Of a DNA stretch of 64,000 nt, positions 17,302-51,877 are shown piece by piece. The notes under the pieces were generated by a model that saw only the letters and a list, made by a program, of their open reading frames with translations, was not told where the DNA came from and ran no database searches. Source of the stretch: Kappaphycus alvarezii (Eukaryota; Rhodophyta; Florideophyceae; Gigartinales; Solieriaceae); the NCBI GenBank assembly GCA_002205965.3, contig NADL03000594.1:1364001-1428000 (forward strand), in the 5' to 3' direction. How positions within the stretch are numbered: position 1 is the first letter of the stretch; each line of letters begins with the position of its first letter. The position numbers and the translations under genes are program-made.

Positions 17302-17461
17302 GACAAAGAAATAGACATGAGAGAAAGCGATCGACTTGCCGGCACAACATGCGTGCGCCTAAATAAGCCCGCCGGTACGCTCGACCCTGTGAAAGGTCAT
17401 CCCGATATTCTTGGTGCTCCCCTCAGATCTTCACACGTATACACACGTTTACACTGGTACG
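17302..17461. repeat. Terminal direct repeat of DIRS-type element, left copy
   Basis: A 160-bp sequence starting GACAAAGAAATAGACATGA and ending ACACTGGTACG. It recurs in the same orientation at 28798-28956 with about 20 differences. The two copies bracket all DIRS-type coding remnants, so they are best read as the terminal repeats of that element; split direct repeats are known in Ngaro/PAT-type DIRS relatives. Confidence 0.7.
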
Positions 17462-18431
17462 AAGACCTAAATAAGACGGATGCGCGCCAGAAGCCGACTG
17501 CAGATGCGCGAAAAACCACTCCGTGTCTTGCGTAGCGCACAACGCGGCTATCGTGGTAGACATTTAACCTTCCCTACGATCCGACTCCCCAGTCTAAGCG
17601 GTGCTTAATGAAAGCGTTGTTATAGTTGACGTTCACCAGCTCGTTAAACGCCCCAATCTGCGTGATATGTAACCAATAATAACACCCATGCGGTGCTTGA
17701 ATTCCCAACTTTCATAAAACCAACCCCAGCGCCTCGTCCACATTCGCGGATCCCAGCATTTGTTGCGTAGTCAGAAAAGAACCACCCCGCACTCTTCGTT
17801 CGAATCCTCGCCCACTTTTGGAACAAATGGTACACGCCATCCCTTTTTTTCCATCGCGGATTAGGCGGATAGGCCAACAATAGAGGCCATGCCAAAACCT
17901 TCCCCTTACGCTGCTCAATCCGTGCTCTCAAAATCCCTTCGTCGTCCACCGTCACGTCCCCCACTGCCACATACGCCACTGACACAGACCGAAGCTGAAA
18001 TATACAGGCAAACACAACTGCTGCACACGCTCCACCCATCTTTCTCGCCCTCTCACTCAATCCTAGGTACAGGATCCTGGACATGTGCGCATCCGGCAAC
18101 CCCAGTCGTACCAAGTCATCTTACTCTGACTCCCAATCCACTTTCATCCTGTAGGCTTTCAGGCACTTCGCGACAAGTCGCGTCTTCGTACGTTATTCGC
18201 AGCCTTCGTCCTCACGATACCGTGACACCGCGGTGACATACTATGGGGCCTATCTCGGGCCCACCTTACCTTACTTCGACAGGTATCCAATACACGCAAG
18301 CACATCCCCTTACTCACCCGGCAATGGGTCTCGTCCTTCATCATCAAAGAACGTGAGCCATTTGAGCAGCTGGCTCGCCCTGTTACCCCACAGTCAGTGT
18401 TTCCGGAATGCCAGTTGTTTGCGCTAGATCG

Positions 18432-18441
18432 CTAGTTTCGT
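18432..18441. repeat. Candidate terminal inverted repeat, left end of insert
   Basis: CTAGTTTCGT, matched in inverted orientation at 27045-27054 with one difference. It sits exactly between the first recognisable recombinase codons of the DIRS element and the stop codon of the ParB-like gene. Ten bases alone are weak evidence; the position at both junctions is what makes it notable. Confidence 0.4.
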
Positions 18442-18460
18442 AAATTAAAATCGAAAAAAT

Positions 18461-20056
18461 CTAAGATTTTTGCAGTTTCACCATCTGAGACGGTATTTTC
18501 CCAGCTGTTGTGTCCACAGTCTTCCCTTTCTTACTTTTTTTCTTTGAAGGCTGTTCGTACTCGTCGTCATCACTGAGCACAACAGCCTTTCTCTTTCTCT
18601 TTTTTTCTTCTTCTCCACAAACTTCTCACTCTCATTATACGACTCCAGCTCAATACATCTCTTGTTGCGTGTGCTACGCGTAGGAAGTAGGGGTTCCCGC
18701 TGGTTTATAGACTCCCCAAACCAGGTGCAGCTACCTCAACAGATTGTACTCCCTCCACTACATCAGTATCCGCCGAGGCGGAACTTAGACTGAGGTTCAG
18801 ACGCTCTTCAATCCTCCTTTGTGCTATTTTTGTCCTCTTGGATACCATCTCCGGCCACAATAGTTCCGCTGCACTGAGTTCCGTCTTTGCAGTTTGCATG
18901 CAAAGGTACTCCATTAAAGGCACTTCGTGCTTTCCCATGAGCAAGGTCGTTTGTAATACTTGCTTCACACTCAGACCCTTCTTCCTTCCTGCTCTCCGGC
19001 ACAAACTAAAAATACATGTGGCGCATTGAAAGAAGTGCTTTCTCATGTCCTGAAAAAGACCAATCTTCCCCAAAGAACTCATTCTCACCCCAATGTGCAG
19101 CTGCAAGCAACGTTTTGCAAAAAAAACTCATCTTTGTTGAGTCCTAATAAGAGATCACTCGACACATGCGCCAATTTTAGCACTGGTCACTCCTTGCACA
19201 CCTCTTCAAAGAACTCCAGAAGCCCTTCGCAATGGAAGAATTTCAATCCAAGAGCAGCATAGCGAGTCAAATATCGCACTCTGTACATACCTATAGCTTC
19301 GCTCCTCTTCAGTGCTCCAGCTATCCGCGTCGGTGAAAGATCTGCGACTTTAACCTTTGTATCCTTCATCAAGTTATAAATGAAGGAGACGGTGCTGTGG
19401 ACCTTGTCCGCAAAAACCAGCTTCAGCACATTGGAACTCATCTCTTTGAGTACATTACCAGGACCGAGTACCTCGTTCATCTATAACGCCTTCCCGTCCT
19501 TGCGTCTCCAAAGCACCACATCCAAAGACCGCACGATATATATCCACTTTCTGCCCTCGGATGGATCATTGATTAGTTCGTGTAGCACCAAAACGCGATG
19601 GTGACCGTCGATAAATATGACAAACAGCACTATCCTTCCATCCTGAACCATTTAGCTGAATTCTAATTCATCCACGACGGCTACAGCAATCGAGCCCGCA
19701 GACGGAAGCCAGCCAAACTTCTTGCACTTTGCCAACGTCGCTGCCTTTTGTTCAGCATTAACAATCCTTACCGTCTTGTCGGGGATTTTTATGTGTTCTA
19801 TGTCCATAATCAGTCGATACTGTTCGTAGTCCGAAACAGAAGTCTTGTGCCCGACGAGAATGATATCTGCCTCCTCCGAAGGAGCTGTATCCCCGTCGTC
19901 GAACAAGTTTAGCTCATGCCCAGTAAGCGACACCTTTCCAAACCTGAATGGCTGGACCACCTCCACAACGCCATCATCATCAGATTCCTCCAAAATGGTC
20001 ACCCATTTCTCTGGCTTGACGGGCTCCTTCATTGCTGGGGGACTTTGCACTGGCAA
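18461..20056 (-). pseudogene. ParB/Srx-fold protein gene, decayed
   Basis: Reads right to left from an ATG at 20056. An acidic N-terminal region (EESDDDGVVEVVQ, SEEADIILVGHK) is followed by a ParB N-domain-like stretch: IEHIKIPDKTVRIVNAEQ, then LAKCKKFGW, then, after one stop and one frame step, VIFIDGHHRVLVLHELI (DGHHR at 19595-19609). DGHHR is the conserved turn of the ParB/sulfiredoxin fold, where ParB proteins use a GxxR(R) box to bind and hydrolyse nucleotide. A helical part follows (LSPTRIAGALKRSEAIGMYRVRYLTRYAALG, 19380-19190), comparable in place to the ParB HTH. A Ser/Glu-rich linker then leads to a strongly basic tail with KKKSKKGK ending at 18461. The basic tail suggests nuclear import. 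About five interruptions make it a pseudogene in this copy. It is head-to-head with the methyltransferase gene. Confidence 0.55.
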
Positions 20057-20194
20057 GGCCTCTTCACAGCCGACGACGTACTCATCTCTCTGGAGGGTGT
20101 CGCAGCTTTGGTAATCTCAACTTAATCCTCCTAGATACTCAAAGGGACCGCAGAGGAGACGCGAGTTATCATGGAGGTATCCAACACGTATACA

Positions 20195-20525
20195 CCTGCC
20201 TCATGGATGAAGTGAAACTGTGACTCTGACGGCCAGCAGTGGCGACTTTAACGCCAATTACCATTTTGCACGATACTGCCGTCCGGCAGCGGTGCCATTT
20301 AACTTCATCGATGAGTCGATGAAGTGAAATGGCATTTCATTGTACTGCTGACGGTCGCAGTGGTAGCGCTGGTGCTCAAATTTAATGTAATTTTAAGCTT
20401 ACCTATATACGGGTCTATGTACTGTATCCCGTCACCGTGCAATGTGCCGTCCGTCCGCAGTGCGTGGGGACTTCATCGTCACACTGATGAAGTAAAATGG
20501 CACCGCTGACGGACGGCAGCATGTC
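20195..20525. repeat. Array of imperfect palindromes in divergent spacer
   Basis: Two large imperfect hairpins share the same elements. Hairpin 1 (about 20278-20370) pairs GCCGTCCGGCAGCGGTGCCA...ACTTCATCGA with TCGATGAAGTGAAATGGCA...CTGACGGTCGC. Hairpin 2 (about 20440-20518) pairs GCCGTCCGTCCGCAG...ACTTCATCGT with GATGAAGTAAAATGGCACCG and CTGACGGACGGCAGC. A further half-unit (GGATGAAGTGAAACT...CTGACGGCCAGCAG) lies at 20203-20245. The words ACTTCATC/GATGAAGT and GCCGTC/GACGGC thus occur five times in alternating orientation between the ParB-like and methyltransferase genes. Such an arrangement would suit binding sites for a dimeric DNA-binding protein or a replication/transfer site; this is inference. 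Confidence 0.65.
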
Positions 20526-20954
20526 TGGAGAACAAGTAGAGGAGACGAGAGCGGTGCTTCTCGTTCCCAAATTTTCACATTAGCTCCTCTTCTACTCCTT
20601 ACTTACGCCTCATTTTGTCCTTGCGTTACGTGGAGCACGCGCAAAACCACCATTTGTCGCTAACGCTTGCAATCTCCCATTCTTGCCCCTACTGGGGGTA
20701 CTACCAACAGTTGGAAGAGCACCAAAGCTGATTCCGAAACAACCGTTCTTCCATGCCTGTTCCACGTCAGGATTCACACTCTTTCCTCCGTCGGCCACTC
20801 CTTGAACGCATTTATCCCGTTCGATTTGAGATTGGGCTTTCGTGAGAACTGCTCATTGGCTTGCAATCGTACTTGAATAGCTCCCACCCTCCCGAGGAGT
20901 TTTCTGAAACCTCTGAAGAATTGCTCACCCTCCCGGGCACACTCTTCTACACTG

Positions 20955-23890
20955 GTGAAATTGATTGAAAATGTTGAAGAACTTGTCAGGGCTAGCCTTG
21001 ATCCCCGCAATTGTTACGTTTCAACGAGGCAAAACGAAGATGAGCCTAGGAATGTGGGGCACAGTACATTTATCGAGCTCGCCATTGCCAATCGACATAT
21101 CCTGCCGGAGACTTCAAAATTCTTTCACACTATTCTCGGTTCCGAGCACTCAACCTATACAGAAAACGAGCTTCGGGTTGTAGGGATGAGGGTTTCTAAT
21201 TGTCAGGTTTACTGTTCAGCAATTTTGCTAGACATAAGGGATAAGTATTCTGATATGCGGGTGAGAGACTTCTGGAACGCATACTAGGCGGCTAATTTCA
21301 AGGTAATTCCGAAGAATGTCATATTGACTCAGTTCTTCAAGACAGTAGAGATAGCTCCGAGAAAGGCAGGCAAACACCGGCCCCCCTTCGCTACCGGCGT
21401 TCTTCAACGTCTCAGAGAGTTCTGTACCTCTTTCTTATTCAGGCGGTCTCCTTAGCGAAAAAGGCGTCCGCCCCTAAGAGAAGGAGGCGGGAAACGAAGT
21501 ACAAAACTCCCTTTTCGAAGGTGGCGATTCTTGACAAACAAATAGTTCAGCGAGTGGGCTTCGGGGTGCAACTGGTAACAAATGCGTGGGATTATTTTGC
21601 TAAGTTTCTTGGATTCCCCAGTGCAAAGGTCATGGTTTTGCCCTTCATCCATCTAAGATACTCTGATATGCAGTTCGAGGCAATTGGGAAACGAACCGAT
21701 GGCTTCTCTCAAAGGGACATCAGCCATCGACTACTTTCGGATAGAAATCATACATTGATAGAGGAAGATGTCGTCTAGTGGGCGTGGAATCTACCGAAAT
21801 ATGTTGCCACCCCACTCCGCACTTTGACTACAGCGTTTTTCTCTGATCTGAACAAAGTGATGGTGAATGAGCAGTTTTACGCGATATCTGCTCCGGAATG
21901 ATTGGACGTTCTCAAGCCTTTTGGGCATAGTGCATCTAGAATGTTTCTAGAGAGATTTGACTGCATCTCAAACTCTTTCATCTCTACCATCATGGAACAC
22001 ATATCGCCACTAAGACTTCGAAGTAGTGTGGAGGTGGAAGAGGTGGCCAAACCAAAGGTAGAACCTTCTATGCTCATGGAAGAAGATTTGATTGAAGTTG
22101 CTCCCGTTGGGAAGCATTCGGAGGCTCGGGAGGCAGGGGGTCTTGAGCAGGGACAGGGTGAGACCACGGTTTCAGGAGAGAACACTGGTGGTGTTCAGCA
22201 GTCTTGTAGGGTTGGGGCAGGGTCAAGCGAAGTTGTGACGGTGGGTACCCTTCCGCCTCATGACCTTACCTCTCTCGATGACATAATGTCTCTCCAGAAG
22301 TTTGAGTCGGGAATGGATAAGCACTTTCGAATGTACAATAGTACATTTAATAACCTGGTGGAGATTGACGAGCCAATGCAAAACAATGGAGTACCTCCGA
22401 TAGGTAAATGCAGTTGGTTCTCACAGACACTCCATGTAACATACGTGCAAAGAAGAACCTAGACAACAGCTAGTACGACGTGCTCACACGTGAGGACATA
22501 GTGAACACGGCGAGGCTCATCTCCAAACTTCTACGTCCGGGAGGGCATTTCGTTATATTCTGTGCAACTGAGCAAGTTAATGGATGGAAAGAAGTGCTGG
22601 GTCGTATTGGTTCCAAGGAAGAGAATAAAACGAAGAGCAAGTCGTTTGTAGTTGAAAGGGTTCAACTACACCCCATTCGATCCCAAGGGAATCCTATGCG
22701 CAATCCGGGTCGTAGTTCCTGCTCTCTGTTTCCTGCAACAGAGCATGCAATTCATGAACTTCGAAGTAGTTATACCTATGCTGAGCAGCAGATCATGTTC
22801 AACTATGAGAAATTCAGCTACTTGCATTCAAGGTATCCGGGTTACTACAGTGCGACTGACCAGGTACCCCCTATGTCGAGGAGAGAGAAAATCCTTTGGG
22901 AAGTATCTTCCGCAGGCTGTTAAGGACATATTGAGGGTCGGATGGAGTATAGTGAAGGACGGTTATGCTGTGGAGCTGGAGAATGATGGATTTTGTGGAG
23001 GGAATCGGGTATATGTGAGTGGGAATATGGAGCAAATAGCAACGGTTGGCCTATGGATTCCGCTGACTGAGAAAATCTACCTATCGATGAGGGAGGAGTT
23101 CTTCATGGAGAATGTGAAGAAAAGACTTGGAACGGTGTTAGTTCGCTATATTGCGTCATTTCGACCGGAGGAGGCAACGTTCAAGCGTTCAGCGCGTGAT
23201 AGTAGGGAAGAAATGGTAGAGGGAGGATATATGGGAGGCGGGGAGGGAGAGGGGGAGCAGGATTGGGAATGCAAGAAGAGTAGCGGTGACTCATTTATGG
23301 AATTAGGAATCTTGAGAAGTTGTGGTATGCTTTTTGGTATTGGGGAAGTAGGGCTTAGCGGCTTGGTCCCTGTAGAATCTGTTGAGGAAAATTCGATGAA
23401 ATCGCCAGTGGACACGAGGGTTGAATGGGGGAGCGGGTTAGTTCTGACGAAGAACGTGAACGAGGCCGAGGATAGAAGAGGATGGTATGAGACCGAACAA
23501 CGGGGAGAATTTGTCGAAGGTGGAAGTTCTGAAGATAATAACGGGATGGGCGGTGTGGTTTTGTTCGTCGTCTGTGGCTCATTGAAGGAAGATACAGTGG
23601 AGGGTGACATAGACTTGATCGCGGGGTGGAACGAGTTCGAGAAACTGAACGAAAGCAAACTCTTTTGTAGTGGAAGTAGAGGAAGGCGTGGTAAAGCGGA
23701 GGAGAGAGATGATTTTGCAGACCCAGGCGATGGGAGTTGGATTGGAGGAGCTTGTTCCGACGACAAGGATATGAGAGAACTTTGGCGTTTTGGAGGGACC
23801 GAAGGTAGGAGCAGCGAATATACGTTTAATGAGTGGGAGTGGAGGACCTTGGAAGACGAGATCGTTTCGATCGGGGAAGTAATTTTCTAG
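20955..23890 (+). pseudogene. DNA methyltransferase (N6-adenine/N4-cytosine type) with unknown N-terminal region, decayed
   Basis: The first 1.5 kb (20955-22462) encodes a region I do not recognise (AIANRHILPETSKFFHTI, KQIVQRVGFGVQLVTNAWDYF), then an acidic linker. The catalytic part follows: LTDTPCNIRAKKN at 22420-22458, with DTPCN (22426-22440) in the place of the (D/N/S)PP(Y/F) motif IV. Next come YDVLTREDIVNTARLISKLLR and the strand PGGHFVIFCATEQVNGW, the pattern that follows motif IV in pfam01555-like methyltransferases. Two overlapping frames continue (FNYEKFSYLHSRYPGYY; then VKDGYAVELENDGFCGGN and VGLWIPLTEKIYLS). The last part of the open frame (23200-23890) is Gly/Glu-rich and may not be coding. 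Motif IV is altered and the reading frame is interrupted several times, so the copy is inactive. The start is undetermined. Confidence 0.5.
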
Positions 23891-24239
23891 GGTTGGAATG
23901 AAGCCTCCGACATCTTAAACGGAATTGACGACAGTGAGACGAGTTTGCTCGAGAGTGGGAGAGCCATTTTTGAGGTCAAATATCTCGAGAAGAGTGCGAC
24001 GGAGGAGGGTAGTCCGGCGGTTCTAATCTGTGAGACGATGGCGACAGTGTTTGGGGATAAGAAATCTTGCAGGGAAGAAGTTGATGTGCGAGGATTTGAG
24101 CGAAGGAATTTGTGAGCAGTGATGAGGTCGAAGAGGTTGATTTGTTTGCCATCACGGACGAAACCTGGTTTGCTGGCAGATAAGGGAAGAGGAGGTGCAG
24201 GGGACGATGAGATAATGGAGGGATCAGTAGAGAGAGAAT

Positions 24240-26517
24240 TCCAATGGTTGATAGCATAGAATCGGTCAATGGCACGGATGGTTTAGCTGTGTTCCTTGGG
24301 TCTGCGTTTGGAGTTTTGGGATTAATTTGCTTTGCGAAGAGCATAGACTTTCTCGAAAACACCTGCATCGTTGAAATGCAGACCAATAAAGCGTCTAATG
24401 TCGTCTACGATGTGATCGGGAAGGTGTAATTTAAGAGTGACAAGATTGGAGGTATGGTGGGGGCCGAGGAAATCGACAGCTGTGTGCTTGAAGGAACGGA
24501 TTTGGTTGCTGAGTGGCCCATTATATGACATAGTTATAGCACATAGTGGTGAGAACTAGATCTGATTACTTGGAGAAGACCGTGATAATAGAAGCAGCAT
24601 CGATTTAATCACAACAGCGGTCGAAGAAAGCGCCGATGAAGTGGAAGACCATGTCAAGGGCGCGGTAGTCTTTCGCTTCTATCATTCCGCTCAAGCCGTT
24701 GGAGGTCAAAAAACCGTTAATAGACTGCCCGCTTTCGAAAGCGGAGAAGTCAACGTGGAGGCCGTTAGCTGGAGATTGTTTTTCGATAGCGACAAGGATG
24801 AAGTTGGAGTGCTTGAGATCGGCAGTGCGGACGGAGTGGAGTGAACGGCCAGATTTTGTGGGGACCGACTGTGGTGAAGAGCTGTCCTGAGCTTAGTCGT
24901 TCGATGGCGGCGAGATTGATGAGTTTGAAAACGCCGAGGTGGAAGTTGTGAAGGGGTTCGGAAGGGAAGGTGTTGCATGGAGAGAGAAGTGGGGTGATGT
25001 TGAAAAAGCGGTAAAAAAGAGTGATGGGTGTTTTGCGAGGGAGAGGGAGCGAAGGGCTTGGAGGGCTTGGTCCTTGAAGTTGCGTGAGACTCTAGGCTTG
25101 CGAGCGAGTAGAGCTGTTCCGGAGTTGCGCAGGAGGGAGGAGTGCTTTTTGCGGGCTGCGAGTGTGAGCTGCTGTGATCGAGGAGGATGGGCGTGAGAAT
25201 GTAGGTGGAGTTATGAACGAGGGACCGTGTATCTATGACACTGGTGCTTGGGTTGGGTGCCGTGGGAGATGGAGAGGATATCCTTTGCCTCAGGGATGTC
25301 CGCGCAGTAGCTAGCAATGATTGGGTGGCATTGACGAACAACGCCGTTTGCATCGCGGAAGTGGAAACCGAAGAGACCGGAATTGAAGAGGGGTTGAAGG
25401 AGGGAAGACATGGATTTTTGTATGAGTTCCATTGTGGATTGGGAGGGGATGTCGGAAGAGGAATGAGGGGTGATATCTACATCTGGAGAAGAAGAGATAG
25501 GATTAGAGGAGGTTGGGAGGTAACCGAGAAGTGTAGGGTTATCAGAGATGCATTTGAGAGGAAAGGAGTCGAACAAGTTGAGTAGTGTGGTGTAGAGGGG
25601 ACAGGAGGTGATGGAGGAAGATTTGAGAGAGGTAGAGGACTTGTAGGAGTAGATTTTGATGAGGCCTATGAAGGAGTCGATACTGGTGGTGTGAGGGAGA
25701 TGCTAGATGATGTTATCCTCGGGGGACTCCATGATTGCGGTCTTGAGTGTGGATACGACTTGAGAGCCGAGGGTGGCGGCCATTGGATGTGCGAAAGCGG
25801 GGAGCCGGACGCCGTTTGTTGGGAGATGGGGTGGAAGAAGATTTTCTTGAAGTATGCGAGAGCGAGCTGTTGTTTGAGGACTTGAATTGCGATCTTCAGG
25901 AAGATGGTGGCGGAGAAACCTTTGCGGGGATCGGAGATAGTAGAGGGGATTAAACCGATAGTACTGATTCTCTGGTGGAAAACATTTGTTTGGAGCTCTA
26001 GGCATTGCTTTTACGTGGAGACAGAACTCTGGAAGTTTGATTTGGAGAAGTGGTGATCGTTGAGAAGAGAGATGATCTCGTCTGCTTTTCGTTGACCAAG
26101 CTTGGAGGCGATAGAGGAGATTTATAGAATCTCTAAATGGGGGCTGTTGAGAAGAGAGGTGGACAAAGGAGGAGGAGAAGGGGCGGGAGAGGAGGGGGAA
26201 GCGAGAGGAACGGAGGCGGTGGCGATGTGAAGTGCGTCTTGGATGTGAAGGGAGATTGAATGCTGGTCGTGGTGGTAGGAGTCGTGGTCAGCAAGAGGGA
26301 CGTTTTCGGAAGGGAGGTGTGAGGTAGGAGGGTGTGGGGGGAGTTGTGAAATGGATTTGTGGCACATTGTGCGAGGAGGGAAGTTGGGTTGATTACCGCC
26401 ATGGGAGAGGAAATACTTGTTGGTGGAGAAGCGATGAGGACACCTCCTCTGGTGGTTCTGGACTGCAGGGATGGTTAGGGCGAAGAAAGAGCAACTATTG
26501 AAGTAGCAGAAAGGCAT
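24240..26517 (-). pseudogene. KDZ/Plavaka-like transposase remnant
   Basis: From an ATG at 26517 the reading begins MPFCYFNSC...IPAVQNHQRRC, a Cys/His cluster resembling the N-terminal zinc finger of Plavaka-type transposases. At 25570-25240 it reads ELIQKSMSSLLQPLFNSG, LFGFHFRDANGVVRQCHPII and ASYCADIPEAKDILS, the characteristic block in which a PIxASYxxDxPE strand precedes a Cys-rich element. At 24846-24615 it reads HSVRTADLKHSNFILVAI and LSGMIEAKDYRALDMVFHFI, comparable to the region preceding the last catalytic residues. A further piece lies at 24531-24322 (KLHLPDHIVDDIRRFIGLHF). Multiple frame changes and stops separate the pieces. The catalytic triad cannot be identified with confidence. 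The opposite strand has long purine-rich frames that look like shadows. Confidence 0.5.
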
Positions 26518-27044
26518 GGTTGACGAAGGAGAGATTGTGGGGAAGAAGATGATGGGGAATGTAGGGGAAGAGAAGATATGGCGCAAGCATAGCACGCTAA
26601 AGGTAAGGATGGTGTAGACGAATATGGAATGCACGCGAGACTGAGTAATGGAGTGGTGTCGTTTATCCTGCCAGGTCTTGTGGGGATCGTAACGCAACTG
26701 GTACAGATTAGAAAATTGTCATGTTTCTATTTTAAATGTCAATTCCGAACTGCGTACTGTTAGCAATTTTTTGATGTAGCGAGCTGAATAGCTTTTCTGA
26801 ACAGCTCAGAGGATCTACTTAGCTCCCATAATCCATCCAGAAATTTCATGTAGACTGCGAAAAGAGAAAGATGTATGCTAGTTAACTCTCCGAATAAACT
26901 AGAACAAACTGCAGATATGTGCTAGTTTCTATTTCCATACAAACTAGCTCTAATGAATAAATGGAAGTATTTTCGGAAATTGAATCGTCCAAATGTAGAT
27001 AAACTCACTGTTTTTCGGTCATTTCTGTTCTTCCTTTTTTGAAC
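26518..27044. other. Non-coding right end of insert with repeated CTAGTT words
   Basis: AT-rich, without a gene. GCTAGTT at about 26878, AAACTAGAAC at 26897, GCTAGTTTC at 26918 and CAAACTAGC at 26935 occur within 70 bases in both orientations, then once more at the border (27045-27054). Clusters of short subterminal motifs that bind the transposase are typical of large cut-and-paste elements. Confidence 0.45.
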
Positions 27045-27054
27045 ACCAAACTAG
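27045..27054. repeat. Candidate terminal inverted repeat, right end of insert
   Basis: ACCAAACTAG, the inverted counterpart of 18432-18441 with one mismatch. The DIRS-type coding remnant resumes directly to its right. Confidence 0.4.
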
Positions 27055-28797
27055 AATTCCCAGAACATCGAAGAAGTCCCCACGCTCCACCCATAGTCCG
27101 CTAGCAACGACACAGCCTCTTCACCGCCTTCCGTTACAGTTATTCCCGTCCCCTCAGTTGTTAGACTCATCACCACCGACCTCAGCCCTTTCATCCACAC
27201 CATCTTCAGTCCGTCATAGCTATGACTATCCCCCAACCCCCTGCCTCGCGCTCTCGTCCGTCCCGCAGTTTCCCGCCGCCAGCTTCCAGCGTTACCATTT
27301 TTGACGCCAAGTCGCGCAAGCGCGCGAACCATGGCTGTGCCGGCCATCTCGGCGCCAATAGCACCCCTTTCCCTTGCTCGGCCTTCAGTTTGCGCACAAC
27401 TAATGGAAGCATATCCGCTGGCGGGTTGTACAATCGTGCCACCCGGTCGCCTCAGTACTCCTGCATCTGGGTTTCCAGGTATTTCACCCGCGCAACCAAA
27501 GTCTCCCCCAAGGGTCGCACTCCAAAGGCCACCCCGTCCAACCCGTACTCCTCCTGCACCGACCGCACTATCCCCTCTGTCGCGGCGATATCCCCCGGAT
27601 CCCATGTCCGGCTCAATGCGTAGGTGAACCGGTTCACCGCAGAGGGTATCCATCGCGCTTCTAATCGAACCCCCAACACCCGGAGTAGCACCTCCAGCCG
27701 ACGTAGTTCTGCCATCATCTCCTCCGAAGACGAAAACATCGCGTTGAGCACGTACACTACCACCTGATTGTCCTCGTATAGCAATAATTTCTTCACCTCC
27801 GGGTCCGACACGTAGGCCGCAAAGTGCCGATGAATCAACAACCGTACCGCGCGTAACTCCCTCAAAGTAATCGATTGCGCGCGATCGCTCGCACCCCACA
27901 GCCCGCGCCCCTCCCACAAACCCGACGACCCTCCTCTCTCGTCTAACCCCAGTTTCCCACCATAATCGGGTCTGCTACATCGCTGTGCATCTTCAGGTCT
28001 GGCGGTATTCGCACGAGATCCCTCCCATCTTCGCGAGTCAAAGAACGCCAGTACGCGAGATACCTCAAGCTCTGCCGACACAGCCGCAACCTGTCCACAG
28101 ATGCCCTCTCAAGGCAAAGCTTGGCCAGATGCGTCGCGGCCTCAACCCCCATCTTCGATGTAAGCGTCTCTCTCGCTGTCCTGTACGACTCCTAGAAGAC
28201 AGCACCCTTCCCTTGCTCCACAATAAATGCCATCTGACGCGCTGTCTTCAATCATTGTTCAGTGATATCCCGAAAGTACTGCGCCCGCATACTCAACACC
28301 TCCAACGTTGCTTTGTTGGACAACTCAGCCAGCGCCAAGAAGCAACCCATCTCTTCCGCCGAAATCGCCTCCTTTCTCGCCATTTCCAATTCCATCGCCG
28401 TCATATCCGCCCAGACTCCCGCCGCATTCACATATTCCCATTCTTTCGCGGACCGTTGATCTTTGGCTCGAAATTCGGAATGTAACGCGTCCGCTGGAGG
28501 CTTGAAATACTTCATGTGCGTTATAGGCACATGAGGACCTTGCTCGAACATGCTTCCTTCCCCTACCAACCTCGAAGCGTTGATCTCCGTCACCACCTTG
28601 CCAAAGTCCCTACGTCCAGGCTTGAGTGTCGACCATGCCACACATACACGCGCGAAACTGTCTCCGACGCCGCCCGCCGAACTCGACTTAGCGATACCGT
28701 CGCCCTGGTTCATATTACTGTCAGCTATGCTCCGAAGCACCCTGTGATGTTCTTGATAGAAGATATCGCCGCCCTCACTCGTAGTGGGGGAATTTCT

Positions 28798-28956
28798 GAC
28801 AAAGAAATAGACATGAAGGAAAGCGATCGACTTGCCGGCACAACATGCACGCGCCTAAATACGCCCCCCGGTGCGCTCGGCCCTGTGACAGCTCATCCCC
28901 ACATACTCGCTGCTCCCTTCAGATCTTCACACGTATACAAACGTGTACACTGGTAC
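28798..28956. repeat. Terminal direct repeat of DIRS-type element, right copy
   Basis: Direct counterpart of 17302-17461: same orientation, 159 bp, with identical first 19 bases and identical end (CTGGTACG). It directly precedes, in element orientation, the gag-like ORF at 28740-28252. Confidence 0.7.
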
Positions 28957-29059
28957 GTACAGTCCAAATGTGCAACGTTGCAAAGTACTTTAAATTAAGT
29001 TGGAATTGGGTGACTAAGCTCTGTGTGTTGCGGTGCGAGACAAATTTCGTATGCTGCAT

Positions 29060-35096: not shown

Positions 35097-35530
35097 CGCA
35101 CCAGCGAGGAATGGGGCCTCCACCATTAGGAATGATCATGCAGACTAGCCTCAACCAATCTCTGATGCAACCATAACTTATCAACTACCTGTCATTCAAC
35201 CTTTTGTAAATCTCCCGATGAGCGCCATTTACCATTTTACCATTTTCAACTTCGAATTCAATGCTTTCAGAGCAAAAGTAATATGAAGCATTGTCTCGCT
35301 TTTCGAGTGCCCTCACACTGCAAATCTCTGCCGCCCAAAGCCCGCTCAAGGCCTCGATTTCACACTTTGTTCGAATTGTAATTTGGATTCAATCCACTGT
35401 CCCCCTCTTCTTGCCTCAGCGCAGTATGCCAGCAACAACCATCATTCCCATTTCTATCCCTTCCCTCACTTCGTCCCTCGAGGACGAGGAATAGGCCCAT
35501 AACGCCCTCTCTACCCTGTGGCGGCCAACA

Positions 35531-36856
35531 ATGCCCCCTTGCTATGCCCTGCTCCTGGCAGCCGTTTCCTTGTCGCTCAAACTTCTTCCCACCAATAGCA
35601 CCCCTCTTCCGTCTCTGTCCCATTCGTCTCACCTCGATCCCCGTCACTACTATCACAACTCTTATCCTCGTCCCCGCCTCCATCCCAAATTACGGGCTAT
35701 TGACCACTCCGACATCACGCATTCCCCTACGAACGACTACTTCACTTCTCAGCGGGCAGCACATGGAGCTCTTCGCAGCTCGGACAGATATCGAGGTGGT
35801 GAAGGGGGTGATAGAGATACGGAGCGGAGGGTCGGGGAATGGAAACGGGGAGGATATGAGGGGGAAGGTGGAGAGGATAAGGGGAGCTCAGTGGCGGAGG
35901 AAATTTTTCAGTCGATCGGAAAATGGCTTGGGTTTAAAAAGTGGGGCCGCGACGGGGAGAGAAACGGGACGAGGGTTGATGATGATGCCCAGAAGAAATT
36001 TGAAAGGGTGGGCGGGCTGAAGGGTATGAGTGAAGGGTCGAAGGCTGGTGGGATAAATGGGGGTATGGGGGCGAATGAGATTAGGGGAGAGTTTGGCGAA
36101 AGGATGGAGAGAGATGAGGATGAGGGAGAGGGGGGTAGCAAAGGTGGGGATGAATGGGAGGGGGAGGGGGACGGGAAGGATGTGTGGGGCGGGTTGGGTG
36201 GGCAGGGGAGGGAGGGAGGGGGGAAGGAGAGTGATGCAGTGGTGAAAGAGGGTGGAGACGAGAGGGCAGGGGGTGAGAATGAGGGTGCGGAAAGGGATGA
36301 AATGTCGGAGGCTGATGTATTGGAGATGGTGAGATTGTTTCGAAGGTTTTTTAGTGGGGTAGATCGGATACTGAGCGAAGCAAATGGGGAAAAGGGGGGA
36401 ACAGTGAAGTGGACGGGACGTTTGAAGGGGATAGGAAGTGGTAGTGTGGGAAAGGCTGAGTTGGGGGGCGGAGGTGGAAATGGAGAGGCGACTCAGGGGA
36501 TTGGACGGGAGAAGGGAAAGACAGAGCTGCCGGATGTTGCGATGGCGTTGGCTGAAGTGGATAGGTTGAACCGGTTGCGGGACTTGGAGAGGAGAAAGAT
36601 GGGAGAAGAAGAAGGCGGGATGGGACGGGAACGGTTAAAATATATGGCGAGGGCTGGAGTAGGGGAGGTGGACGAGGAGGAGGAAGCTGCGGACTTGGAG
36701 AGTGATAGGATGGTGAGGGAGTTGCCGAAAGCTGCGCCGAGCTACGGAATAAGGAAGAAGTTATTGGGACGTGGAGAGGATATTGCTGAGGAACGGGGAA
36801 GGAGGAAAGGTTTGAAGGAGTGGTTGTTGGAAGGCATTGAGACCATGATCAGATAG
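35531..36856 (+). CDS. Hypothetical Gly/Glu-rich protein with N-terminal signal-like segment
   Basis: An open frame of 441 codons starting MPPCYALLLAAVSLSLKLLP, a hydrophobic segment suited to a secretory signal peptide. It is followed by a His/Pro/Ser-rich stretch, then about 200 residues very rich in Gly, Glu, Asp and Arg, and a more ordinary C-terminal third with probable helices (EADVLEMVRLFRRFFSGVDR, ALAEVDRLNRLRDLERRK) and a basic end (RRKGLKEWLLEGIETMIR). No known domain is recognised. The coding strand is strikingly purine-rich in the middle, which keeps the opposite strand open as Ser/Pro-rich frames. The two charged helical segments favour a real gene, but a low-complexity chance frame is possible. 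It is the first gene of the island and is followed on the same strand by the PMT gene. Confidence 0.5.
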   Translation: MPPCYALLLAAVSLSLKLLPTNSTPLPSLSHSSHLDPRHYYHNSYPRPRLHPKLRAIDHSDITHSPTNDYFTSQRAAHGALRSSDRYRGGEGGDRDTERRVGEWKRGGYEGEGGEDKGSSVAEEIFQSIGKWLGFKKWGRDGERNGTRVDDDAQKKFERVGGLKGMSEGSKAGGINGGMGANEIRGEFGERMERDEDEGEGGSKGGDEWEGEGDGKDVWGGLGGQGREGGGKESDAVVKEGGDERAGGENEGAERDEMSEADVLEMVRLFRRFFSGVDRILSEANGEKGGTVKWTGRLKGIGSGSVGKAELGGGGGNGEATQGIGREKGKTELPDVAMALAEVDRLNRLRDLERRKMGEEEGGMGRERLKYMARAGVGEVDEEEEAADLESDRMVRELPKAAPSYGIRKKLLGRGEDIAEERGRRKGLKEWLLEGIETMIR

Positions 36857-38097
36857 GCGAGAGTTAAATTGATCCGGCGTATGTTTGTACACGTGTAGTT
36901 GCGAATGGCAAATCTTACAGACCCGGATGGAACTGTAAGTACAATTTGCAAGGGTGGTTTGTGCCGATGACATGTTTCAGGTTTCCTGTCGAGCTACAGT
37001 ACTTTCGAATAGGACAGTACAGTGTACTGTACTGTACTGCACAGTAAACTACTAAATTTTAGAATTTAAACTTGGAAAGGACACCACAACGCGTACCCAC
37101 TACCCTGTTGCAGTTTTTGACTTTGGGATAGGCGCCATTACATGTTTTTACAGGAAAGCACTCAAACGTCCCCCTTTTCGAACTTCCTGGCACCCGGTTT
37201 TGTACAGTGCCCATAGTGCAGCACGACAAAAATTTTCAACTCACTCTTCCTCCTCACCACAACGGATGATGACATCATGGACAAGAACAGTGGTAGGTTG
37301 ATTGGGAAACGTTGAATTTGATGATTCAGCATGGAAAGCTTGCGAAGAAGGCTGTGGCTACAGCCAGAGTACCGTAGTTGGGATTTTTGTACTTGCGGTA
37401 CTTTCCTCCAAAAGGATGATGCAGTACCGTATGATCTGGAGGAGGCATTACCTTGAGGCGGGGTACTGTACTGTACTGTCTTTTGGGCTGCAGTTCTTTT
37501 TTGAGCCAAGAATTTAGGCTGGATTGTCCACAGTTATTGATTGATATGGATTAGTTGATATTTTCCGAAAGGCCACACATTGTACGCTAACACGTCACTC
37601 AGTGTCCTTTAATTTCAAGTTTTTGTGCCCTGTCCAGTAAGTTAGTACGAGGTATAGTACAGTACTGTACTGTATTGTACGCAACCTTTTCTCTACTACT
37701 CCCCAAGTCATGTAGTATGGCACTGAAGGGAGTATATTCCTTCGAGAGCCAACACAGGCGCAGTACTCTGCCCATTACACAAGTGGCTCCCAGAAACTGT
37801 GCAGCATTTTTTTACCGAAAAACATGCCGGAAAGGGCCATACTCTAAAACATTTCCACAGATGACAACGACTAGCTAGTCTGCAATCTCTGGTTAGTATC
37901 CAACGTTCCGGCAGGCGGATCACCCAGTCGCATAATTCATTTATTGTTGTCCATCAAAGAACGTAGCGTCACCTTGCTGATCCAGTACAAAGGTAAGATA
38001 TTGCTTGCAGGAGCCCCATTCGTCTGGACTGAGACCCCTTGACGGTCGCAGTCGGCTGTTCTGTCGATTTTCGAGCTGCCTACCTCCCCATCACATC
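36857..38097. other. Intergenic region with GTACTGTAC palindromes
   Basis: No gene. Overlapping GTACTGTAC/GTACAGTAC words occur at about 37016-37040, 37461-37480 and 37651-37680. A promoter for the PMT gene must lie in the right part; no TATA box stands out. GGTAAGATATTGCTTGCAG at about 37991-38009 has splice-site-like ends but is far too short for an intron. Confidence 0.6.
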
Positions 38098-39835
38098 ATG
38101 TTGCGTCAGCGCCGCAAACCCAGCGCTCAAGGTCGCTCCCAAAAACCTTCATTTTCTGCCCGCAAGCGAAAGCCATCTGTTCAATCGGCGTTTCAAACAG
38201 CATCTGCTTGGCTTTTAGATGTAATTGGCATCCGCAAGCTTCGTCCAGATCCTCCCCTTTCCCCACATGATAAGAGCGCGTTACGTCTGGATGCCGCTCT
38301 TGTCACTCTCATCTTCGTTGTTTCCCTTGCAACCCGATTCTACCGCCTTGCCCAACCCCCGAAGATCGGTATGCATTTCCTTCTTTGCTTTTTGTCTCTG
38401 CACAATGTCAGTACCGCATGTATCTGCAGACGCACTTGAATCAGATCCTAACCTTATTGACGTCTCTCCTTATCCTCAGTTTTTGATGAATTCCATTTTG
38501 CTGCCTTTGTCGATCAATACAACTCTGGTCGCTACCTTTTTGATATCCACCCCCCTCTTGGCAAACTTACCCTGACTGCCGTCGCCAAACTCGCCGGCTA
38601 TCAAAACATCAATTATACCTTTGATGCCCTGGGCAAGCCCTTCGGTGATTTAGTCTACGTTCCCCAACGCGCCTTCTCAGCTCTTGCCGGCTCCTTTATA
38701 CCCCCAGTCATGTACCTCACCTGTCGTACCCTCCTCTTCACCCCTCTCGTCAGTCTTACAGCAGCCGCGATGCCCCTCTTTGATTTTCTTCTTTGCATCG
38801 AATCTCGCCTCATACTCACCGACTCTCAGCTCATCCTTTTTATACAATCCTCCTTTTTATGTGCATTCAAGTTGTGGTCCACTCCAAAGAGTACACCAAA
38901 ACGCTACTTATGGCTTTGTCTCACTGCATTTTTCGGCGCATGCGCAATCTCTACCAAATGGACAGCGATGGTTGCCCCCGCCATGATCGGGTTAGTTTCC
39001 CTTGTGGGCTTTCTATTTAGAACTTCGACCTCTCTTGACCTCATCGAAATGGCCATCGCAGGGTTTATTGCCATCACATTGTATATGTCGACCTTTTGGA
39101 TCCACTTTCGACTGCTTCCCTTTTCCGGTCCTGGAGACGCGTTTATGAAAATAGACTTCCAACAAACACTGATCGGAAACCCTCATTACGGCGAGTATGA
39201 CGTGGCGACGTTGAAACCTCCATCGTTCTGGGAAGCGTTTCGATATCTGAATTGGGAAATGCTTCGTGCAAACAGTGCGATCGAACAGAGGCATCACTGG
39301 GAATCGAAATGGTACGAATGGTTGTACAATGCCCGTGGCGTGTTGTATATCGATGAACCAGAGGGAAAAAGGACTACGGCAGCAAATATACCTCATCTCG
39401 AATCCCGTGTTGACAATTTGCACGGGGTTAGGGGTGATCATATCATTAGTGTTGTTACTTCGAGTACCGTTCCAAATACGTCACGCTCGACGGAAGGTGG
39501 GTGAAGACCTAGAGTCGGTGGATGAGGTGGGGAGACTGAAGAAAAGGGGATGGTTAATCTCGTTCCACTGGGTGGCGTGGGTATTGAACCTGCTACCGTA
39601 TGTTGGAGTGAAACGGTGTACCTTTCTGTACCATGTGTTGCCGTCTTTGCAAATGGCGAGTATGTTGGCTGCGATTGTGTTGCAGGGGTTGGGAAGGAAG
39701 GTGAGGGTAGTGGCTTGTGTAGTGGTGATGGTGGGGTTGATTGGGGCATTCTATTGGTGGAGGGCATGGATATACGGGATTCCTCAAAGTATAGAGGCTC
39801 ATGACAAACTGAGGCTTATGCCCAGATGGAATTGA
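38098..39835 (+). CDS. Dolichyl-phosphate-mannose--protein mannosyltransferase (PMT), MIR-less, two exons
   Basis: Transfers mannose from dolichyl phosphate to Ser/Thr of proteins in the ER lumen. Exon 1 is 38098-38368; the intron is 38369-38479 (GT...AG, 111 bp); exon 2 starts at 38480. Splicing joins PPKI to VFDEFHFAAFV, recreating the invariant luminal DE motif (residues 93-94), and HPPLGK follows at 114-119. Several hydrophobic segments follow, then FWIHFRLLPFSGPGDAFM, HHWESKWYEWLYNARGVLYI and, near the end, LPYVGVKRCTFLYHVLPSLQ. Fungal and animal PMTs carry three MIR repeats after the SGPGDAFM region; here about 60 residues connect directly to the next membrane block, giving about 541 residues as in bacterial PMTs. 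The frame changes by one base in an A5 run at 39366-39370 (either a sequencing error or a real lesion); dropping one A restores GLRQQIYLISNP. An in-frame ATG at 38005 is an alternative start. Confidence 0.85.
38369..38479 (+). other. Spliceosomal intron of the PMT gene
   Basis: 111 bp, starting GTATGC and ending CCTTATCCTCAG. It interrupts a codon after its first base. Removing it joins KI to VFDEFHF, the most conserved motif of the PMT family, which fixes both splice sites. It is the only well-supported intron in the window. Confidence 0.85.
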
Positions 39836-41866
39836 GGCATATCTCGACCATGCATCATTGCAAGGGCGCAGCGAGTACAGTAGCTGTGGGCGATCCTATT
39901 AGTGCGGAGCGACAGCAGGCTACATGAGTTGTGAAACCAGACAGATGACGGTGAAGAGTGCAGCAGGCGCAAGTTGGAATGATAGAGTGTGTGTCCGCCG
40001 CTCACTGTCCTGGAACGATTGCCAAACGTTGAGCCGCGACGTGCTACGTGCGATGCAGCTGGAAGCCACAAAGACGATGGCAAGAATTTTGTCGCAAGTT
40101 GTGTGCGCCGTATCGTACGTCGGGGTTTGCGAAGTGGGTAAAGGCAGTGTTTCTGCGGACCGAGAGGACCAAGAAGTTATTGTGTTGGTATTACTAACCA
40201 CAGTGCATCTGGCAAGGTCAGAGAGAGCGCATGGACAGTAATCGGTGATGTTACTCTAAAAGCCAAGGTCAATAAACAGGCCTGTGCATTTGGTTTACAG
40301 AAACCAAACAGTACGCACAGACCAGTATCGGCTCGTACTAAAAGGCTAGTCGATATGTATCTTGTCAGTAAGGAATTTTTGGAAGTTACTTTGGGGAGGT
40401 TCAGGTAACAGGTTTAGAATACCGTGTTGAACTGCTGCGCACTGTTCGACTGTGAGTCGGTGACAGTTCAATTATAATTACAGCAGTACACCAAGAGTGA
40501 TTCACTATCGAGATATCTCTTTCACAAGCTTAAACTTTTGTTAGAAAACTGCTTGGCATTGCAAACTCATCTGTGATTGGATGGGTTATAGTTTTATTTG
40601 TAATCTTCAATACATACGGTATAAGACAAAAAATACAAATACGGTGCAAGGTAGCAATATACAGTTCAGGACTGTACTGTACAATGCTGTACATTAGGGT
40701 GTACAGTACTTGTCAACAAATCACCTCGCTTTTGTTTGCATTTTCAAAATCTTTCTTTTGTATCAAATTATTAAGATAATTTCTTTGGTGTTGTGGTTAG
40801 TGTACAGTACCGTTTAGATTATATTTGTAAAAAAATTTCCACAGGCCCCCGATGACAAGGCACAAGCTCGACATGCTTGTTGCTTTTTAGGAAAATCAAG
40901 TATAGTTTTTTAAATTAAGGGATAATTCTGTTTTTAACTCGTGCCGAATAAACTATTTGCCGTGGGCGACTTAAATCCACGTTGTCCTTTGTCATATTGA
41001 TAGTAGCGTCTAAAACGCGTTGAGTGTATATATTGTGAAGCAGACATCACGGGAGGGATATCATGCAGTGTAAGGGCACGTCAAGATCTGCCATAAAAAC
41101 CTCATCAGCTATTTCTATTATTCATGCGTCCCTTTCGTGGCTTGCGTAACTCGGGAAGTAAATGCCAAAATGGGAACAGTGTACAACAGATACTTTTTTA
41201 GATATAAAATTAGGCTATTAAAACTAGGCTGCCGATAATTTTATGGGCTAGAATGCAATTTGAGGATTAAGTACTGTAAAACAATTTTACAAACTCTTCC
41301 TGTTAAGAAGCCAAGGTATTAATAATTGTTGTTGCCGCTTTTATCAACCGGGAATTTTTAGGTTGGTACACCGTACAGTACTGTACACTAGGTACAGATA
41401 CAGGGACCCCTTCCTCACTATCACAGCAGGTCGCATTACATTACTCAATACTGCAGAAGCAATTGTTCATACAGCACCAAAATATCGAGTTTTTTTTGTT
41501 AAAAAAACGGGCTGCCCTCCCCCCCGATCCGCTGTCGCTCTCAACGATACCAAAATGGCATCCCGGGTTATGGATCCTACTCAAAACAGAAGCAAATATT
41601 ATCAAACTTTAACATTTTGGCCCAACTCTTTGCCGCAACTGCTCGTCAAAATCGGAGTATTTATACCCCACCAGTACCCCACTCGACCTTCGCTTCTCTA
41701 CTTGCATCGCCCCCGCACCGCAACCGGAATAATTGTGCAACGCCTTACACCCAACTCACTTCGTCTCCCCACCCTCGTCAACCTCTCTTTCGCCACCTCA
41801 CACCCCACCTCCTACCTCAACCACCACCCTTCATCCACACTTCTCAATTATCCCTCTCCTCCGATT
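39836..41866. other. Intergenic region
   Basis: No gene recognised. GTAC palindromes occur at about 40671-40712 and 41373-41395. Open frames near 39920-40240 on both strands are short and lack motifs. A TATTTATA at about 41658 lies 200 bp before the APS kinase start and could be its TATA box. The open frame of the kinase extends upstream to 41363 without a stop, but that part is low-complexity and includes this AT-rich box, so it is treated as 5' untranslated. Confidence 0.55.
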
Positions 41867-42511
41867 ATGGCTACCAACATTGTATGGCATGACGGCGTCA
41901 TCGCAAAGGAGCACCGCTATGCTATGCTCAAGCAAAAGGGTGCTACAATTTGGCTCACCGGTCTCTCCGGCTCTGGGAAGTCCACCGTCTCTGTAGCCCT
42001 CGAACAGATGATGTTTAAGAGGGGTTACTTGGTTTACCGCCTTGACGGTGACAACATCCGTTTTGGCCTCAACAGCAACCTCGGATTTAGTGCTGACGAC
42101 CGTAAGGAGAACATTCGTCGTATCTCCGAGGTCGCCAAGCTCATGGGTGACGTTGGCGTTATCACCACTTCCGCCTTCATTTCCCCCTACATCGCCGATC
42201 GTCAAGTTGCCCGCCAGATTCATGAAAAGGCAGGCATTCCATTCGTCGAAGTGCACGTCGATGTACCCTTGGAAGTTGCAGAGCAGCGTGATCCGAAGGG
42301 ACTCTACAAAAAGGCTCGCAAGGGTGAGATCAAGAACTTTACCGGGATTGACGACCCTTATGAGGCCCCGGAAACTCCCGAAGTTAAGATCGATACCGAC
42401 AAGCTCAGCGTGAATGAATGCGCCGAGAAGATCCTCGAGTATCTTATTGCTAAGGAGATTGTGCCTCAGAAAGAGGCCGCTGTGGAGAACGGCACCAACG
42501 GCACGGCGTAA
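41867..42511 (+). CDS. Adenylyl-sulfate kinase (APS kinase)
   Basis: Phosphorylates adenosine 5'-phosphosulfate with ATP to give PAPS, the sulfuryl donor for sulfated polysaccharides and for assimilatory reduction in some lineages. The 214-residue product covers the whole family. It shows Walker A GLSGSGKS (residues 32-39), RLDGDNIRFGLN (58-69, APS binding), GFSADDRKENIRRI (73-86), TSAFISPY (101-108), RDPKGLYKKAR (141-151) and FTGIDDPYE (158-166, lid/APS contact). All expected catalytic residues are present. The start ATG at 41867 gives MATNIVWHDG, matching the normal N terminus of stand-alone eukaryotic APS kinases. Longer in-frame starts exist upstream (for example 41363), and a leader for an organelle cannot be excluded. 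A short Ala/Glu/Asn-rich tail ends the protein. Single exon, GC-richer than its surroundings. Confidence 0.95.
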   Translation: MATNIVWHDGVIAKEHRYAMLKQKGATIWLTGLSGSGKSTVSVALEQMMFKRGYLVYRLDGDNIRFGLNSNLGFSADDRKENIRRISEVAKLMGDVGVITTSAFISPYIADRQVARQIHEKAGIPFVEVHVDVPLEVAEQRDPKGLYKKARKGEIKNFTGIDDPYEAPETPEVKIDTDKLSVNECAEKILEYLIAKEIVPQKEAAVENGTNGTA

Positions 42512-50510: not shown

Positions 50511-51034
50511 ATTAAAATTTATATCCAGGTATTGGGCGAATTCCAAAAAGATTAATCTCTGTTTTTTGTTTTTATCGGACCGTCTCAAGCATTGATGTGT
50601 TTTTTATTTCAGTGATTATGTGATACGCGCGCACTTTTTTTCAAAAAAAGGCGGCAACCATGGCAGTCTATATCGAATCTCATCAACAGTGCCGCAAATG
50701 AATCCCACACAGATGCTGTACATCTTAATGTCATTGGCATTGTACGTTCTAACTTGGCAACAACTAAAATCGCCGTAAGTCATAGGTCCCTCCAGTCTTT
50801 TTTTACTGAAATAATATGAACTTGAATGTTGCATAGCTGGTTTAAGATGTATCTTAACTATTTTAATAGTTCTCATCTTCTTAGAGAGACTCGAAATGTC
50901 ACTATTGTCAGGGTTCTCGCAACATTACGGGGTCTACATGAGTTCCTGTGCAATGAAGGTCTATTCAATATTGCTTTGCTGCGGTAGTAATATCTTCGTT
51001 ATACTTTTGGTGCTTAAGAGTTAAAAGGATAAGA
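50511..51034. other. Stretch without recognised gene
   Basis: AT-rich; right flank of the gag remnant and left flank of the long hairpin. No coding signal recognised. Confidence 0.5.
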
Positions 51035-51378
51035 GGGGCACGGTACAGTACAGTACATATAGTTGTGTGCTGTGCCGCGCCCTTGATAGTAGTTCGCGGT
51101 AGGTTACGCTTGGCCAAGGAAAACAATAAAGGAAAACCAAGCATTTCATGACCCAGGCTTCGAGACTCTGAATCTCAATGCCTGGGTCATGAAATGCTTG
51201 TTTTTATTCAGAGTCTCGAAGCCTGGGTCACGAAATGATATTCAGAGTTTCGAAGCCTGGGTCATGAAATGCTTGGTTTTCCTTTATTGTTGCCCTTGGC
51301 CAAGCGTAACCTACCGCGAACTCCTATCAAGGGCGCGGCAAAGCACACCACTATATGTACTGTACTGTGCCGTGCCCC
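51035..51378. repeat. Long hairpin: 139-bp inverted arms with 66-bp loop
   Basis: Left arm 51035-51173 and right arm 51240-51378 are reverse complements with about seven mismatches. The loop contains two more partial copies of the inner unit (CCTGGGTCATGAAATGCTTG at 51181-51200 and a variant near 51221), so the unit occurs four times in both orientations. The outer ends carry GGTACAGTACAGTAC and its inverted counterpart. It could be a foldback element or MITE. If transcribed through, it would give a long, nearly perfect double-stranded RNA stem. Confidence 0.9.
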
Positions 51379-51877
51379 AATCCCCATCCCCTTCCTGGCA
51401 TGCTATGGGGAGATACGTCTGGAAGCTTCCAGATGTATCTCTCGGGGTGCGGCACTGTACAGTACTGTGCGTGCGCATTTATGGGGCATTTACAATACTG
51501 TACTGTGCATACAGTAACTTGCGTGCCACACGCAATCTGCGTGCCACAGGTCTCTTCTTGAGGTGCAACTGCGTAATAGACCGACACATGGAGAGTCCAA
51601 GCTCTTCGGAAGGAGTTTTTGCGAGCGAATATGCGTAGATAAAGGAAAGGGTAAAGAGTTTGAAAGTAGTGGGGCGTGTGGGCGAAGGAAAACAGCAAGC
51701 GCGGGTAGAGGTTTACTGAACAAATTCCTCCTTGCCTCCTCGACGACTACTGCACACCCGAGGAAGCCATGGTAAAGTACTGCGACGCGAATCAGGCGAA
51801 AGCACATCACTGCTGACAGTATTCTTACAGTGGATGTGCCTTGACACTTCTATACTACCGGCATGGCATGGGGGTAC
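51379..51877. other. Intergenic region with further GTAC palindromes
   Basis: GTACAGTACTGTGC at about 51456, ATACTGTACTGTGC at about 51494 and GTACAGTAC at 51874-51882. A short inverted unit AGATACGTCTGGAAGCTTCC / GGAAGCTTCCAGATGTATCT is centred near 51425. An open frame at 51563-51775 has no recognisable motif. Confidence 0.55.

Follow-up and report, generated by a model that had tools for sequence, protein, structure and literature searches.

Candidate ParB-like and DNA methyltransferase-like genes beside a Plavaka transposase in the red alga Kappaphycus alvarezii

Accessory proteins that combine a ParB-like domain with a DNA methyltransferase have been described on an algal transposon: in the passage devoted to it, Sola1-1_Ec32 of Ectocarpus carries both domains in one protein of 1104 amino acids, encoded on the strand opposite the transposase (PMC12477816). 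The same passage cites green and red algal relatives, with Iyer 2011 and Petroll 2025 among its references, and reports giant EnSpm elements with several accessory genes in red algae. Plavaka transposons, according to the sections that treat their classification and ends, are grouped with EnSpm/CACTA, an earlier placement near KDZ having been corrected; some fungal members carry TET/JBP genes, and the published ends are TGT..ACA or CATCA..TGATG (most of the group has CA..TG) with a duplication of 2-5 bp (Kojima 2025, PMC12730594). Here we describe a block of about 8.6 kb that holds ParB-like, methyltransferase-like and Plavaka stretches between two DIRS-like readings, within a 64,000-nucleotide stretch of the Kappaphycus alvarezii genome (contig NADL03000594.1, positions 1,364,001 to 1,428,000; hereafter the window, in whose coordinates all positions are given).

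Our preferred explanation, to which we assign a probability of roughly 0.45, is that the block (18436-27050) may be a decayed EnSpm/Plavaka-type cut-and-paste transposon with a transposase and two accessory genes transcribed apart from each other, one for a putative ParB-like DNA-binding protein and the other for a putative bacterial-type N6-adenine or N4-cytosine DNA methyltransferase. We infer that in an active copy the ParB-like protein would bind an alternating inverted-repeat array between the two genes, would regulate both promoters, and would bring in the methyltransferase so that the element marks itself; such self-marking could help the element escape or exploit host chromatin marking.

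Transposase and two candidate accessory genes

The genes and the array between them, in order along the block, are as follows.

18464-19127, minus strand: ParB-like gene, probable C-terminal part, read in shifted frames and closing with a lysine-rich tail (frame reading)
19190-20116, minus strand: N-terminal part of the ParB-like gene; IDGHHR lies at 19612 (frame reading and phage ParB profile)
20206-20520, no strand assigned: array of five imperfect units in the orientation + - + - + (self-inverted alignment and folding)
20877-22413, plus strand: stretches poor in stops, in several frames, ahead of the methylase core and with no known domain (frame reading)
22414-22920, plus strand: methyltransferase-like core with a motif IV-like DTPCN, YDVLT and LRPGGHFVIFC, and a stop (TAG) at 22471 (frame reading and phage methylase profile)
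24325-24555, minus strand: probable downstream Plavaka piece with KLHLPDHI (H-3-H), then VFEK (motif reading; no Pfam match alone)
24768-25091, minus strand: probable Plavaka piece with SEPLHNFHLGVFK (PLHNFHLGVFK), in another frame (motif reading; no Pfam match alone)
25214-25702, minus strand: Plavaka transposase core (PF18759, E 1.3e-13, profile positions 116-247 of 325)

By its profile match, the minus-strand stretch at 25214-25702 is identified with certainty as Plavaka transposase, scoring 51.4 bits in Pfam, about twice the cut-off of 26.3. Taken alone, its stop-free frame is less telling, because stops are scarce in C-rich sequence (61 of 2000 Markov copies were as low). Two motifs, C(2)C and H(3-4)H, are expected in Plavaka transposases ahead of the final catalytic E (Kojima 2025, PMC12730594); in the broken frames here the latter is read as KLHLPDH, an H-3-H within 24325-24555, and the likely place of the former reads CHRY, with the second C not kept.

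The ParB-like frame (20116-19190) contains only two stops (TAA at 19654, TAG at 19483) over its 309 codons, where Markov copies average 15.8, and none of 2000 such copies was as low. It reads, in order, IEHIKIPDKTVRIVN, GWLPSAGSIAVAV and FIDGHHRVLVLHEL, which we take to be the order expected of a ParB/Srx domain; the turn pattern alone would be expected 0.165 times in the window. Within the probable C-terminal part, 18708-19127 shows no stop in 140 codons. A phage search with the ParB-like core returned two records (E 3 and 4), the second annotated as a ParB-like partition protein, and this protein (L002) served as the seed of a profile of 11 phage ParB-like proteins, the other 10 being taken from 40 listed of the 319 phage records similar to it. 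The profile scored 8.6 bits on the ParB-like stretch, as high as none of 2000 shuffles, and two tiles overlapping the stretch ranked first and second among 852 six-frame tiles of the window (8.6 and 8.4; next place 2.1; E 0.058). With the seed removed, since it had been chosen for its weak match to the query, the stretch still came first with 6.3 bits (next place 2.1; 0 of 2000 shuffles as high).

Similarly, the methyltransferase-like frame (22414-22920) reads VLTDTPCNIRAKKNLDNS, a stop and YDVLTREDIVNTARLISKLLRPGGHFVIFC, with that one stop in 169 codons against a Markov mean of 8.6 (1 of 2000 copies as low), and no stops were found in each of 20877-21284, 21296-21775 and 21902-22459, upstream of and into the core. 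Motif IV followed by the PGGH block is the order seen in N4-cytosine/N6-adenine (N4C/N6A) methyltransferases; the letters DTPCN depart from DPPY. A profile was made from nine phage N4/N6 methylases out of 11 (10 fetched plus L014); L025 and L026 were left out, the motif IV pattern being absent from them, and L015 and L016 were unused. From the motif IV place to LRPGGHFVIFC the stretch aligns with this profile at 7.6 bits, a score reached by none of 2000 shuffles, and the tile holding the core was the best of the 852 (8.9 bits; next place 5.5). For the ParB profile, the methylase profile and the ParB profile without its seed, respectively, hmmsearch reported 1252, 1473 and 1230 of the 2000 shuffles, the remainder scoring too low to report. 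A strict methylase pattern, written after the match had been seen, occurs once in the window and in none of 200 Markov windows. Weak leads came from PHROG 67 ('DNA methyltransferase', E 0.19), from PADLOC mad2 (E 0.0075), presumably a methyltransferase, and from two methyltransferases in the PDB (E 0.017 and 0.057), above which designed repeat proteins rank.

These results, read from motifs and small profiles, weakly support a ParB identity for 19190-20116 and a methyltransferase identity for 22414-22920. An earlier note on this DNA had named a minus-strand ParB-like gene, a plus-strand N6-adenine/N4-cytosine methyltransferase and a minus-strand KDZ/Plavaka-like transposase, had proposed profile searches for each, and had counted a lack of matches for the first two as evidence against it. 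Plavaka was borne out by PF18759; KDZ was rejected, as only Plavaka matched among the pieces given to Pfam and Plavaka does not lie near KDZ in the classification quoted above (PMC12730594). For the other two genes the stop-poor frames with their motifs (IDGHHR in the ParB-like one) stand and the small phage profiles place them at the top, weakly, but the curated profiles found no significant match.

An array of inverted units between the divergent genes

The array (20206-20520) lies between the divergent ParB-like (minus) and methylase-like (plus) genes. Each unit consists of GATGAAGT, about 16-26 bases and a TGACGG.C-like block: positions 20206, 20318 and 20486 carry GATGAAGT, positions 20302 and 20470 carry ACTTCATC, and after each, read on its own strand, comes a TGACGGACGGCAG-like block. 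Units 2/3 and 4/5 form two head-to-head dyads with equal 8-bp spacers; GATGAAGT is common to all five units, units 1 and 4 fit the remainder less well, and the third carries a 10-base insertion. Of the nine GATGAAGT sites in the window, five fall within the array, as do three of the five window matches to the longer block CACCGCTGACGGACGGCAG (up to five mismatches). The self-inverted alignment score of the array is 71, versus a mean of 22.5 and a maximum of 40 in 300 Markov controls, and as single-stranded DNA it folds 7.3 standard deviations better than shuffles (z -7.28; 0 of 100 shuffles). The exact unit forms were absent from the genome and viral contig collections searched, and Rfam over 18000-28000 gave no match at the gathering threshold.

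Only the inverted repeat at 50.8-51.4 kb outscores the array within the window. This very strong repeat (50801-51400) reaches a self-inverted score of 438 (400-bp segment at 51001), the top value among those scanned over 64 kb, and overlaps a tandem repeat at 51173-51280.

The position of the array suggests a candidate operator or ParB-type binding site. The segments 20273-20325 and 20470-20522, separated by 144 nt, show 87% complementarity, and the array might instead be a small foldback or a MITE-like (miniature inverted-repeat transposable element-like) insertion with 53-bp inverted arms. We consider this unlikely: one of the five units lies outside the arms, the units alternate (+ - + - +) with equal dyad spacers, and a flanking duplication is not evident by eye. 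For the same reasons, alternation and the unit left outside, 20273-20522 was rejected as a pair of transposon ends, and the operator-like array is preferred, though not proven.

One element or two

The block is bordered by these features.

17644-18430, minus strand: recombinase-like reading, taken as DIRS (motif reading)
18432-18435, no strand assigned: CTAG, candidate left copy of a 4-bp target-site duplication (sequence)
27051-27054, no strand assigned: CTAG, candidate right copy of the 4-bp target-site duplication (sequence)
27452-28108, minus strand: RNase H-like reading, taken as DIRS (motif reading)

In the earlier note the block was said to split a DIRS element. DIRS-like motifs do stand on both sides, on the minus strand, but a Pfam search of three DIRS pieces gave no significant match; joining the flanks on one CTAG leaves about 120 codons between RWPAQPW (in frame 2) and LLKWLTFF (in frame 0). 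Because these two motifs differ in frame with stops between them, leaving the joined flanks without one open frame, the motif readings make the split likely, not proven. The CTAG edges were freely chosen, and a 4-bp match between such edges is weak evidence; they read TTTCGT/TTTGGT, unlike the published Plavaka end types.

A direct repeat of 160 nt (17302-17461 and 28798-28957, 89% identical) flanks the DIRS-like remains on both sides, and possibly represents the terminal repeats of a DIRS-like element.

All three genes of the block carry stops or frame jumps, and this copy looks dead in all of them. Some of the jumps could be assembly indels, because the window's mannosyltransferase gene seems to show one too. 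That gene (38461-39832; PF02366, E 7.5e-37) seems to change frame close to a run of A, at about 39340-39370, which would make it a pseudogene, a gene with an intron or the site of an assembly indel.

That all three genes sit on a single transposon, as the earlier note proposed, is not established: no ends above chance were found and the skew breaks inside the block. We regard it as plausible, with a chance a little under one half, because the genes share one block and because there is an algal precedent. Several observations tell against it, and against the gene readings that it builds on. No convincing terminal repeats were found in the block, its three loose end pairs comparing with 0-7 in 20 shuffled flanks; the single TGT..ACA pair (18552/26803) has a counterpart in 81 of 500 shuffled flanks; and at 22.9 kb, the point at which the methylase drops out of frame, G skew on the plus strand rises abruptly from 0.02 to 0.57. 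The SAM (S-adenosylmethionine) site pattern, motif I, was not found in the plus frames of 20877-23276. In Pfam, neither the ParB-like read-through (PF02195 included; E up to 5) nor the methylase-like stretch (PF01555 included) matched any family; NCBIfam gave no match for the former and nothing significant for the latter, only the unrelated mCpol (E 0.17). The best of 2000 shuffles came close to the observed scores (8.0 versus 8.6 bits for ParB, 5.6 versus 6.3 without the seed, 6.3 versus 7.6 for the methylase), and left-out true members scored 127.5-312.3 bits (ParB) and 38.8-232.5 bits (methylase) versus 6-9 bits here, because of which the ParB-like stretch would at best be a distant or worn relative. 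Searches of contig collections, in which eukaryotes are few and only close relatives can be reached, confirmed none of the 6, 0 and 9 pattern matches to the methylase, ParB-like and Plavaka stretches among viral contigs nor any of the 32 to the methylase stretch among genome contigs, and viral contigs yielded no relative of the back-translated LRPGGH block.

Further searches gave the following. The viral contigs yielded no relative of the ParB seed protein, and phage records showed no match to the methylase stretch; seven plasmid records matched that stretch at E 3-9, with no methylase among their named annotated features. The ParB-like stretch had nothing significant in PHROGs or PADLOC (a weak, unrelated match was PHROG 18699, function unknown, E 0.28), and Pfam found no match for the piece 18708-19127 of its probable C-terminal part.

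The skew break speaks for a reading in which the block joins two elements of different origin, a ParB-like/methylase part (18.4-22.9 kb) and a Plavaka part (22.9-26.8 kb) that was inserted into the methylase gene or joined to it by deletion. Besides the abruptness of the break, the strand that encodes Plavaka is strongly C-rich and those of the ParB-like and methylase genes are richer in G, and the methylase core ends at 22.9 kb without a recognisable motif I. The skew may, however, be a property of the gene itself; inspection by eye showed no remainder of the methylase to the right of Plavaka, and 22.8-23.2 and 26.5-27.06 kb offered a single poor loose end pair (22984/26838) and no typed pair. 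We hold such a composite origin to be possible but somewhat doubtful. A further source for the methylase would be the DIRS element, since some DIRS elements encode an adenine methylase and the stretch does lie between the RNase H-like and recombinase-like readings; it is on the opposite strand to both, and we consider this origin highly improbable.

The two accessory genes might also be misread, being other decayed genes or chance motifs. The small profile scores and the silence of the curated libraries, apart from unrelated hits such as mCpol, fit that suspicion, as do the best PDB matches of both stretches, which are designed repeat proteins, and AlphaFold without an alignment, which returned no usable fold for the ParB-like or the methyltransferase-like stretch (mean predicted local distance difference test values of 36.6 and 38.0). 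Yet both stretches lead the 852 tiles with their motifs in the correct order, their frames are poor in stops, and the strict methylase pattern, post hoc as it is, was confined to the real window; we judge a misreading improbable. The interpretation offered in the earlier note keeps its domain guesses, which are probably right, and a cut-and-paste transposase with ParB/methylase cargo makes sense; the single element is no more than plausible.

Elsewhere in the window, an adenylylsulphate (APS) kinase gene lies at 41264-42508 (PF01583, E 1.4e-68) and a retroelement integrase-like open frame at 56921-57625 (PF00665, E 3.8e-7, slightly under the cut-off). An extreme strand skew at 36001-37000 (G skew 0.67) overlaps a 453-amino-acid open frame (35495-36853), for which Pfam gave no match. 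Judged from its retroelement-like, mannosyltransferase and APS kinase genes, the genome sampled by the window looks eukaryotic.

Comparison with described systems

The earlier note proposed a candidate undescribed transposon type. Because algal transposons with ParB and methyltransferase cargo have already been published (PMC12477816, in the passage on the Ectocarpus protein), the block is probably a decayed, differently arranged relative of known algal cargo transposons and not a new kind of element. Among the papers listed by our ParB literature searches we recognised a description of such cargo in that one, and no paper on ParB together with Plavaka was found in the collection searched. What would be a variant is the arrangement next to Plavaka, with the ParB-like and methylase genes separate and divergent on either side of a dyad array. 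A bolder version, which we think rather unlikely, is a Plavaka-type lineage with a self-contained marking module, in which a ParB-like protein, a separate methyltransferase and, between them, a parS-like dyad cluster serving as the ParB-like protein's own site would let the element seed its own methylation from one cis array. A transposon able to bind its own DNA and mark it chemically would parallel, in eukaryotes, the self-modification of phages; the published passage on the algal protein names no binding site (PMC12477816), and the dyad array, should it recur in intact relatives, would give a concrete sequence for binding and targeted methylation.

Set against phage ParB-like partition proteins and N4/N6 DNA methylases (INPHARED), the two genes appear to share a DGHHR-type turn and a DPPY-like motif plus PGGH block in the same order, but reach only 6-9 bits by profile versus 38.8-312.3 for true members. 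With Plavaka transposons of the CMCT group the block shares the PF18759 core and perhaps, by motif reading, the H-3-H; unlike them, as far as the published section on ends describes them, it has no convincing TGT..ACA or CATCA..TGATG ends. Among the closest described systems is also Sola1-1_Ec32 as presented in its own passage (PMC12477816), in that a ParB-like domain and an N4C/N6A-type methyltransferase would be carried with a eukaryotic DNA transposon. In Sola1-1_Ec32 both domains belong to one protein, whereas here they are read from two divergent genes on opposite strands, a difference that counts against our preferred explanation; and here, unlike there, the pair stands beside a Plavaka transposase, is decayed, and encloses an inverted-repeat array.

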